A DNA stretch of 64,000 nucleotides. Origin: Arthrobacter sp. PvP023. Its GTDB lineage: Bacteria; Actinomycetota; Actinomycetes; Actinomycetales; Micrococcaceae. The position numbers were made by a program, and so were the translations under genes. Under the pieces are notes generated by a model. The model had not been told where the DNA came from and did not search any database. It was given only the letters and a program-made list of their open reading frames with translations. The stretch spans positions 1,240,001 through 1,304,000 of the forward strand of contig NZ_JAFIBI010000001.1 in the NCBI RefSeq assembly GCF_017832975.1. The letters are read 5' to 3'. Position 1 is the first letter of the stretch. Each line of letters opens with the position of its first letter. Shown piece by piece: positions 803-52,340 of the stretch.

Positions 803-809
803 CCACGAA

Positions 810-875
810 CCCAACTGACTCGCAGTTAACGCTGTGAAAACCCGTTTTGGGAGCGTTAACTGCCAGTCAGTTGGG
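810..875. repeat. Palindromic repeat family B, copy 1
   Basis: A 24-bp inverted repeat with one mismatch: arms at 810-833 (CCCAACTGACTCGC then AGTTAACGCT) and 852-875, around an 18-bp loop. A second copy with almost the same sequence is at 50833-50898. Here it lies between two convergent gene ends (ArsR regulator and lldD), so it could serve as a bidirectional terminator. Its conserved sequence over 50 kb suggests a REP-like dispersed element rather than an ordinary hairpin. Confidence 0.85.
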
Positions 876-903
876 CGAGGCGGCTGGTGGCCGGGCGTGC
901 AGG

Positions 904-50832: not shown

Positions 50833-50898
50833 CCCAACTGACTCGCACTTAACGCTGCGAAATCGCGTTTTCGGAGCGTTAACTGCCAGTCAGTTGGG
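50833..50898. repeat. Palindromic repeat family B, copy 2
   Basis: Arms 50833-50856 and 50875-50898 (CCCAACTGACTCGC / GCCAGTCAGTTGGG outer ends) around an 18-bp loop. It is nearly identical to the copy at 810-875, including much of the loop (GAAA...CGTTTT). It lies between the CE7 gene and the aroG leader. Confidence 0.85.
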
Positions 50899-50988
50899 GG
50901 AGGGCCGCGCGGTTAGGGCTCCGCAATATGAGGTCGCGAAATGAGCATGAATTTGCGGACGGTGCGTGCGGCGGTTATGGTCGTGGCT

Positions 50989-51048
50989 ATGACTAACCGT
51001 TGGTATGCGTATTTTTCGTTGGCTCTGGAGGGGCCCGCGTCTAACTGA
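50989..51048 (+). CDS. Aromatic-rich leader peptide of the DAHP synthase gene
   Basis: A 19-residue frame, MTNRWYAYFSLALEGPASN, ending at TGA 51046-51048. Trp, Tyr, Tyr and Phe within five residues (RWYAYF) is the hallmark of ribosome-mediated attenuation of an aromatic pathway gene. Upstream in-frame ATGs at 50941, 50947 and 50977 would lengthen it; the start is uncertain. Hairpins follow directly. Confidence 0.72.
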   Translation: MTNRWYAYFSLALEGPASN

Positions 51049-51100
51049 CACGCATCCAACTTTCCTTCAGAGCCAACAGGGCAGAGATCATTCTCTGCCC
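51018..51100 (+). promoter_or_regulatory. Attenuator hairpins upstream of the DAHP synthase gene
   Basis: Stem 1: GTTGGCTCTGGAGG (51018-51031, inside the leader frame) pairs with CCTTCAGAGCCAAC (51064-51077), 14 bp with one G-T pair. Stem 2: GGGCAGAG (51079-51086) pairs with CTCTGCCC (51093-51100), then TTCGCCATTT. The left arm of stem 1 can also pair weakly with CAGAG of stem 2 (51082-51086), a possible switch. A strong T run is lacking. Confidence 0.65.
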
Positions 51101-51167
51101 TTCGCCATTTCTCCGGCGGGTTCTGATCTGGGCCCGCTCCGCACCATCCGGAACAGGACCCGCACAC

Positions 51168-52340
51168 ATGAGCACCGCAGCAGCCACCGAAACACAGCCT
51201 TCCACTTCCCCGGAAACCAAAGGTTCCCCGGAAGGCCCTGCGTCCGCGCAGAAATCCACCTCGAACCTGCGCGTCAGCGAATTCCAGGCCCTGCCGTCGC
51301 CCCAGGACATGATCGCTGAACTGCCGCTGGACGCCCGGGTGGCAGACGTCGTCGAACGCGGCAGGGACGAAGTCCGGGCCATCATGGACGGCGTGGACGA
51401 CCGCCTGCTGGTGATCGTGGGACCCTGCTCCATCCACGACCCCAAGGCCGGCCTGGAATACGCCCGCCGGCTGGTGAGCCAGGCGGAGAAGCACAAGGAA
51501 GACCTGCTGATCGTCATGCGGACCTACTTCGAGAAGCCGCGCACCACGGTGGGCTGGAAGGGCCTCATCAATGATCCCCACCTGGATGGCAGCCATGACA
51601 TCGCCACCGGACTGCGTGCCGCCCGCCAGTTCCTGAAGCAGGTCACGTCGCTGGGCCTTCCCACGGCCACGGAGTTCCTGGAACCAATCAGCCCGCAGTA
51701 CATGGCAGACCTCGTCTCCTGGGGCGCCATCGGTGCCCGCACCACCGAAAGCCAGATCCACCGCCAGCTGGCCTCCGGACTGTCCATGCCCATTGGATTC
51801 AAGAACGGGACCGACGGCGACCTCCAGGTTGCGGTCGATGCCTGCAGCGCCGCCGCGGCATCCCAGGCCTTCCTGGGGATCGACGGCGATGGCCGGGCCG
51901 CACTCGTGGCCACCGCCGGCAACCCGGACACACACGTGATCCTCCGCGGCGGACGCAAGGGCCCCAACTACTCCGCGGCGGACGTCGAAGCGGCCTCGGC
52001 GAAACTGGCCGGCAAGCAGCTCAACCCCCGGCTGATCGTGGACGCCAGCCACGCCAACAGCGGCAAGAGCCACCACCGCCAGGCCGAGGTGGCGCTCGAA
52101 ATCGGCGCGCAGCTGGAAGACGGCGGAGCGGCGGCCGCGGCGATTGCCGGCGTCATGCTGGAGAGCTTCCTCGTGGGCGGGGCGCAGAACCTCGATGTGG
52201 CCGACCACGCGGCCGGCACTGACGCACTGGTCTACGGCCAGAGCGTGACGGATGCCTGCATGGAATGGGACGTCACGGCGTCGGTGCTGGGCCAGCTGGC
52301 AGCATCCGCGCGCAAGCGGCGTGGCGCGCTGGAGGGCTGA
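51168..52340 (+). CDS. aroG: 3-deoxy-7-phosphoheptulonate (DAHP) synthase, class I
   Basis: A 390-residue AroG/AroF-type DAHP synthase, condensing phosphoenolpyruvate and erythrose 4-phosphate as the first step of aromatic amino acid synthesis. Landmarks are LLVIVGPCSIHDPKAGLEYA, LIVMRTYFEKPRTTVGWKGL, IGARTTESQIHRQLASGLS, GFKNGTDG, ILRGGRKGPNY and IVDASHANSGK (metal-binding His). A ~30-residue Ser/Thr-rich lead precedes the usual start of the domain. ATG 51168 follows AGGAC. Expression is probably attenuated by the leader just upstream. Confidence 0.92.
   Translation: MSTAAATETQPSTSPETKGSPEGPASAQKSTSNLRVSEFQALPSPQDMIAELPLDARVADVVERGRDEVRAIMDGVDDRLLVIVGPCSIHDPKAGLEYARRLVSQAEKHKEDLLIVMRTYFEKPRTTVGWKGLINDPHLDGSHDIATGLRAARQFLKQVTSLGLPTATEFLEPISPQYMADLVSWGAIGARTTESQIHRQLASGLSMPIGFKNGTDGDLQVAVDACSAAAASQAFLGIDGDGRAALVATAGNPDTHVILRGGRKGPNYSAADVEAASAKLAGKQLNPRLIVDASHANSGKSHHRQAEVALEIGAQLEDGGAAAAAIAGVMLESFLVGGAQNLDVADHAAGTDALVYGQSVTDACMEWDVTASVLGQLAASARKRRGALEG

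Follow-up and report, generated by a model that had tools for sequence, protein, structure and literature searches.

DAHP synthase (DAHPS) catalyzes the entry step in the synthesis of aromatic amino acids, and in the literature searched, RNA-level control of this step in Actinomycetes is represented by one species. In Corynebacterium glutamicum the attenuator aroR precedes aroF (Neshat et al. 2014, through PMC11802643 and PMC4046766), and aroF is up-regulated under Phe limitation (PMC11802643). Like the element analyzed here, aroR encodes an aromatic leader peptide and immediately precedes a DAHP synthase gene; the descriptions in these sources, by which the two are compared, concern a single species, Phe and Tyr codons, and control of transcription. 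Relative to aroR as so described, the form studied here adds a Trp codon and a downstream segment (d, below) and lacks a good terminator. The LEU element and other actinobacterial leader RNAs (Seliverstov et al. 2005, PMC1262725) likewise precede amino acid genes. In the same survey of actinobacterial leaders, the regions ahead of Phe/Tyr genes showed no conserved RNA structure (PMC1262725), and in two large screens for structured RNAs a DAHPS element is not mentioned.

Two better known classes of attenuator also offer points of comparison. With those of the trp type (E. coli trp and actinobacterial trpE) the element shares a short ORF of control codons, mutually exclusive helices and codon-specific sensing. 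It differs from them in that three amino acids would be sensed at once, in the hairpin lying between the third and fourth segments, in the lack of a U-tailed terminator in the window, and in first segments that exclude each other by crossing (r:r' versus a:a', as listed below). With translational attenuators of the ermC type it shares a leader stall that may govern access to the Shine-Dalgarno (SD) sequence; unlike these, its inducer would be uncharged tRNA rather than an antibiotic, and the polarity at segment a is probably reversed.

Leader ORF and promoter

The window, by which we mean the whole stretch of 64,000 nucleotides of Arthrobacter sp. PvP023 DNA, contains the following features, all on the forward strand.

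50953-50958 and 50976-50981, +, putative promoter: -35-like TTGCGG, 17-nt spacer, -10 TATGGT (from sequence)
50989-51048, +, leader ORF MTNRWYAYFSLALEGPASN, probably leaderless
50999-51010, +, r, partner of r' (swap test, 0/10000 permutations; constrained fold)
51001-51015, +, control codons UGG UAU GCG UAU UUU, W-Y-A-Y-F (from sequence)
51018-51031, +, a, left arm of the 14-bp stem (covariation, swap test)
51021-51026 / 51030-51035, +, p:p', predicted small hairpin within the leader (constrained fold)
51050-51060, +, r', partner of r, directly 3' of the stop codon (swap test, constrained fold)
51064-51077, +, a', right arm, partner of a or d (a:a' and a':d each 0/10000 permutations)
51079-51100, +, c, second hairpin and spacer between a' and d (99.3% of cells paired)
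51103-51106, +, x, CGCC, pairing with the first bases of d, 51115-51118 (p = 0.03)
51115-51125, +, d, GGCGGGUUCUG, mimic of a, pairing with a', d' or e (swap test, folds)
51130-51137, +, d', GGGCCCGC, pairing with d (d:d' p = 0.003; helix 3 of the covariance model)
51152-51163, +, e, SD region of the DAHPS gene, AGGA at 51155-51158 (folds, swap test)
51168-52340, +, class I DAHP synthase gene (PF00793, E 6.7e-88)

The short frame proposed in the initial annotation was borne out to the base: the ORF encodes MTNRWYAYFSLALEGPASN followed by a stop codon, which lies, as had been claimed, in the loop of the 14-bp stem. The DAHP synthase start at 51168 is located 3' of the leader and stems. The putative -10 hexamer ends 7 nt 5' of the leader ATG; a sigma-70 consensus scan of the window did not pick up this promoter (50953-50981). 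A TANNNT box was found 6-9 nt 5' of the leader start at all 88 of the 88 loci read, a spacing whose constancy is still far from chance although the box was one criterion in choosing leader starts. This suggests that the leader mRNA is leaderless, transcripts appearing to start at the leader ATG itself. Leaderless leader peptides have been described in S. lividans (PMC8079986) and in C. diphtheriae (PMC5784534).

Alternative helices of the leader RNA

The minimum free energy (MFE) of the leader region is -89.2 kcal/mol (z = -4.8), and none of 200 shuffled sequences folded as well. Searches with Rfam covariance models, at the gathering score and at a permissive threshold (E up to 5), gave no relevant match to the window element, whether to T-box RNAs or to known leader families such as the Trp leader. 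The 14-bp stem (51018-51031 / 51064-51077) pairs without mismatch and includes a single G-U pair. The second stem was also present as first annotated (51079-51086 / 51093-51100, extended by an A-U pair between 51078 and 51101), and a terminator scan agreed with the earlier remark on the lack of a good T run, since no terminator-like site was detected 3' of it.

An alternative fold, which the initial annotation had considered not obvious, was found beyond the second stem. The right arm a' fits either a or d, the latter being a copy of a. The letters copied from a into d vary among lineages, being GGCUCUG or GGUUCUG in Micrococcaceae and GCUCCGG, GGCUCGGGUG or GCCGGCUCGA outside this family, and in every case the copy matches its own a'. 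When a' is freed, most relatives are predicted to fold as a three-way junction in which a':d encloses hairpins c and x:d1. The last of these reads CGCC/GGCG in the window versus CGUC/GACG in other families, and the folds agree. Some relatives, of the type of locus L252, have no d, which suggests that the output of the element varies by lineage. In many relatives the 5' part of d' pairs with the SD region. A further helix, r:r', comprises 11 bp with one bulge and is mutually exclusive with a:a' by constrained folding and by the swap test described below. The small hairpin p:p' may hold a in the non-stalled state; its pairing is preserved in leader variants in which E-G-P is replaced by E-E-P, and its swap test was not significant. 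The pairing scheme first proposed stands as to its two stems and was incomplete in that r:r' and a':d had been missed.

Comparative evidence for the helices

Covariation analysis of the leaders, suggested earlier as a check, revealed compensatory changes in the three helices a:a', c and d:d' of a first covariance model built from 28 sequences. In an alignment of 76 elements, 94.2% of cells pair, and changes on both sides are seen in 21 of 30 pairs (7 of 8 in hairpin c); the covariation score is 0.409, column shuffles giving 0.155 and slid controls no more than 0.105, all of these figures being somewhat favorable because the alignment was fitted to the model.

We set beside them a swap test, which counts no pairs and ignores the structure of the model, its segments being drawn from the same 76-element alignment. 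Native partners were compared with partners exchanged between loci, for 32 loci below 70% identity and with 10000 permutations. For a:a', a':d, r:r' and c, no permutation in 10000 matched the native pairing. Weaker values were obtained for d:d' (p = 0.003), d':e (p = 0.004) and x:d1 (p = 0.03); as p = 0.004-0.007 was also reached by some of the control pairs, the evidence for d:d' and d':e is to be taken as moderate. Pairing of d with e was not conserved across the 32 loci (p = 0.36), and d:e was ruled out as a general sequestor. Compensatory change extends to helices that cannot coexist, namely a:a' with a':d and r:r' with a:a'. Comparison of the sequences shows the leader and the helices a:a', c, a':d and r:r', less strongly d:d' and d':e, and supports the view that this is a real regulatory RNA.

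Distribution among Actinomycetes

Of the 80 nearest DAHPS loci, which belong mostly to Arthrobacter and its relatives and also to Microbacterium, Brachybacterium and Pseudactinotalea, essentially all keep the leader and stems. The exceptions are single frameshifted or altered leaders, as in L001 and L069. Conservation, on which the initial proposal depended, reaches far beyond the genus. A sample of 395 genomes of the class gave 37 with the element by the first covariance model and 67 by a second, a few of them weak chance matches. Among the 78 genomes of this sample with a class I DAHPS, the element lies directly upstream and on the same strand in 45; for family f27 the figure is 19 of 20. 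Families f11 and f47 carry more diverged leaders, missed by the model, that were read upstream of DAHPS; an aromatic leader preceded by a TANNNT box was present at all 50 of the f11 loci read, the box being required by the search for these leaders. The leader with stems in the window is the Arthrobacter-group form of an element common to many families of Actinomycetes.

Nearly all the strong model matches read away from class I DAHPS precede chorismate mutase genes. Such loci are those of one large-genome family and L107 (L107-L110, L155, L156 and L208-L219). In family f24, also matched by the model, the gene that follows encodes chorismate mutase, in most cases as a fusion with a DAHPS-like domain. 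This domain is only a partial match to PF00793 (E 8e-16 for L107 and 1e-4 for L108) and may be degenerate. Many other genomes of f24, in genus g51 and elsewhere (e.g. L187-L189), possess a class I DAHPS with no recognizable aromatic leader upstream. Matches in G018, G262, G264, G367 and G034 and in other classes were set aside as chance, being weak or partial and adjoining neither DAHPS nor chorismate mutase.

Two small-genome members of f11, L252 and L253, have leaders beginning MRMWRFYFSKAPE and MRNWRFYFEWG, with an F-Y-F motif as in aroR, which suggests that aroR, known here by its description, is probably a distant member of the same family. Hairpin c is present with these two leaders (MRMWRFYFSKAPEAETS and MRNWRFYFEWGSGR), and no clear d was seen.

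Control codons and target genes

The leader sequences read are short ORFs rich in codons for the end products of the pathway, as is typical of attenuators. In DAHPS leaders the choice of Tyr and Phe codons, which favors the rare UAU and UUU, is the reverse of that in the genes they precede. DAHPS leaders contain 98 UAU and 3 UAC codons, 57 UUU and 11 UUC, whereas the DAHPS genes downstream contain 3 UAU and 358 UAC, 11 UUU and 484 UUC; the ratio of UAU/UUU to UAC/UUC is thus 155:14 in the leaders and 14:842 in the genes. Trp is present in 55 of 62 distinct DAHPS leaders, Tyr in all 62 and Phe in 58. The corresponding numbers for 16 chorismate mutase leaders, drawn largely from one family, are 0, 10 and 16. 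The difference in Trp gives p = 1.4e-11 by Fisher's test, with kinship ignored. This pattern fits the pathway, since DAHP synthase feeds all three amino acids and chorismate mutase lies on the route to just two of them, Phe and Tyr.

The residues ALEG of the window leader are replaced across the class by APGG, APAA, APLG or ARGG, with the RNA pairing kept by compensatory change. This argues that selection acts on the RNA and the aromatic codons, not on a fixed peptide; conservation of the peptide independently of the RNA, as in leaders of the TnaC or SecM type, was not found. The attenuation first suggested from the W-Y-A-Y-F codons is strongly supported by the choice of codons, the match of amino acids to target, the covariation, and the adjacency to DAHPS or chorismate mutase.

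Proposed mechanism and polarity

We consider it reasonably probable that the element is a ribosome-mediated attenuator in the mRNA leader of DAHP synthase, sensing the charged tRNAs of Trp, Tyr and Phe. Transcription would begin at the leader ATG, so that the 5' end could take up a ribosome immediately. If an aromatic tRNA ran short, this ribosome would stall on W-Y-A-Y-F, hiding r and halting before or at the edge of a; a:a', the 14-bp stem, would then form, keep a' from d and leave the DAHPS gene on. When charged tRNA is ample, the ribosome would cross a and the leader would refold behind it (r:r', p:p'), allowing a' to pair with d around hairpin c and turning the gene off. In the window, the off state would place the SD region in a hairpin and the on state would free it through d:d'; in some relatives the off state would be an intrinsic terminator. 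Of this scheme, we infer the polarity, the response to starvation and the level at which control acts in the window.

The polarity is suggested by relatives that have no hairpin c, in which a':d is a plain hairpin immediately 3' of the leader. In one of these, L264 (493-515), a':d is an intrinsic terminator with a U7 tail, so that there a':d is the off helix and a:a' the antiterminator; L264 is the one clear locus that supports the polarity in this way, a similar terminator in L267 being weaker, with a U6 tail. By comparison with this relative the 14-bp stem is a helix of the antiterminator type rather than a terminator, and in the window too a:a' is probably on and a':d off. The published response of aroF agrees in sign.

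Positions of the control codons bear on the same question. In the window these lie 20, 17, 11 and 8 nt 5' of the GGCUC core of a. Over all leaders, 55% of aromatic codons are at least 12 nt 5' of the core, so a ribosome stalled there leaves a free, and 43% are at 8-11 nt. In constrained folds, a stall at either of the first two codons is predicted to leave a:a' intact, and one at the last (usually Phe), where a ribosome would cover most of a and weaken a:a', leaves about one third of it. In the ribosome-free leader a:a' is already the more stable fold, which, like a stall at the last codon, counts against the scheme. Because r:r' covers the control codons and excludes a:a', its role would be to hold the leader when no ribosome is stalled.

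The terminator scan detected no U-tailed terminator at either a':d or c of the window. Output there is probably exerted at the ribosome-binding site, with d' (or d) holding the SD region in the off state, as the conservation of d:d' and d':e suggests. Segment e is predicted to be sequestered in the window: the region 5' of the DAHPS start is closed in both predicted states and costs about 7-10 kcal/mol to open. The cost is 7.0 kcal/mol with a' free versus 10.2 otherwise, opposite in sign to the favored polarity. Over 76 loci the mean difference in equilibrium SD accessibility was near zero with no consistent sign, and this measure was dropped as a test of polarity.

The lower cost with a' free in the window is what would be expected if the logic resembled that of ermC, with the stalled ribosome covering a, the freed a' pairing with d and releasing the SD region from d:e, and a':d as the on state. 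We regard this as unlikely. In the window d:e is a 10-bp helix of the MFE fold, the predicted cost of opening the SD region falls by 3.2 kcal/mol when a' is freed, and a ribosome halted at the last aromatic codon would lie over the core of a; but d:e is not conserved (p = 0.36), a':d of L264 is an intrinsic terminator and hence off, r:r' is left without a role, and more than half of the aromatic codons are too far upstream for a ribosome to cover a.

Classical transcription attenuation, with c an intrinsic terminator of poor U tract whose efficiency is set by the leader, is decidedly improbable for the window. It would account for c being the best conserved helix, for the strong U tracts that follow c in many f11 loci and in the chorismate mutase family, and for the description of aroF control in C. 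glutamicum as transcriptional. Against it, covariation of c with an upstream segment was not seen (mid:c5 p = 0.91, a:c5 p = 0.12), c lacks an adequate U tract in the window, the L264 type has no c, and d is transcribed later than c. Regulation of c by an upstream partner was dropped for want of covariation, leaving c with no visible regulation. Hairpin c is terminator-like with a U tract in other families and has U-rich tails in relatives, and termination at c is an alternative in lineages with a U tract after it.

An ordinary conserved 5' UTR that senses no amino acid, with stability hairpins or a chance ORF, is very unlikely: GC-rich leaders often have hairpins, but the codon bias, the dependence of Trp on the target, the constant TANNNT spacing and the covariation all argue otherwise. 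Arrest by a nascent peptide with an LEGP motif, sensing free aromatic amino acids as TnaC does, is barely credible and was rejected, since the peptide is nearly invariant in Micrococcaceae but ALEG, APGG, APAA, APLG or ARGG stand at the same position elsewhere with the pairing kept.

Returning to the attenuator that senses charged tRNA, we suggest tentatively, and with somewhat less than even confidence, that such leaderless attenuators occur class-wide. One stalled ribosome would read three amino acids through the exclusive pairings r:r', a:a', a':d, d:d' and d':SD, ending at the ribosome-binding site or at an intrinsic terminator according to lineage, and the element would have exchanged DAHP synthase for chorismate mutase as its target, losing the Trp codon. 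The element would explain DAHPS control in many families. It constitutes a natural set of variants in codons and structure, with leader codons matching the target enzyme and an output that seems to shift between transcription termination and the ribosome-binding site, and is of direct use in engineering strains for aromatic compounds.

Neighboring repeat and an anomalous record

The interval from the upstream esterase gene to the leader promoter contains a 66-nt near-perfect palindrome (window 50833-50898; CCCAACTGACT ... AGTCAGTTGGG). About a dozen diverged copies are present in the genome, one of them at window 809-880, and from its sequence it looks like a dispersed REP-like repeat or a bidirectional terminator. 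Among the loci compared, L061, from an assembly titled Sporosarcina beigongshangi, has an Arthrobacter-like DAHPS locus whose protein is 79% identical; this assembly is probably misnamed or contaminated.
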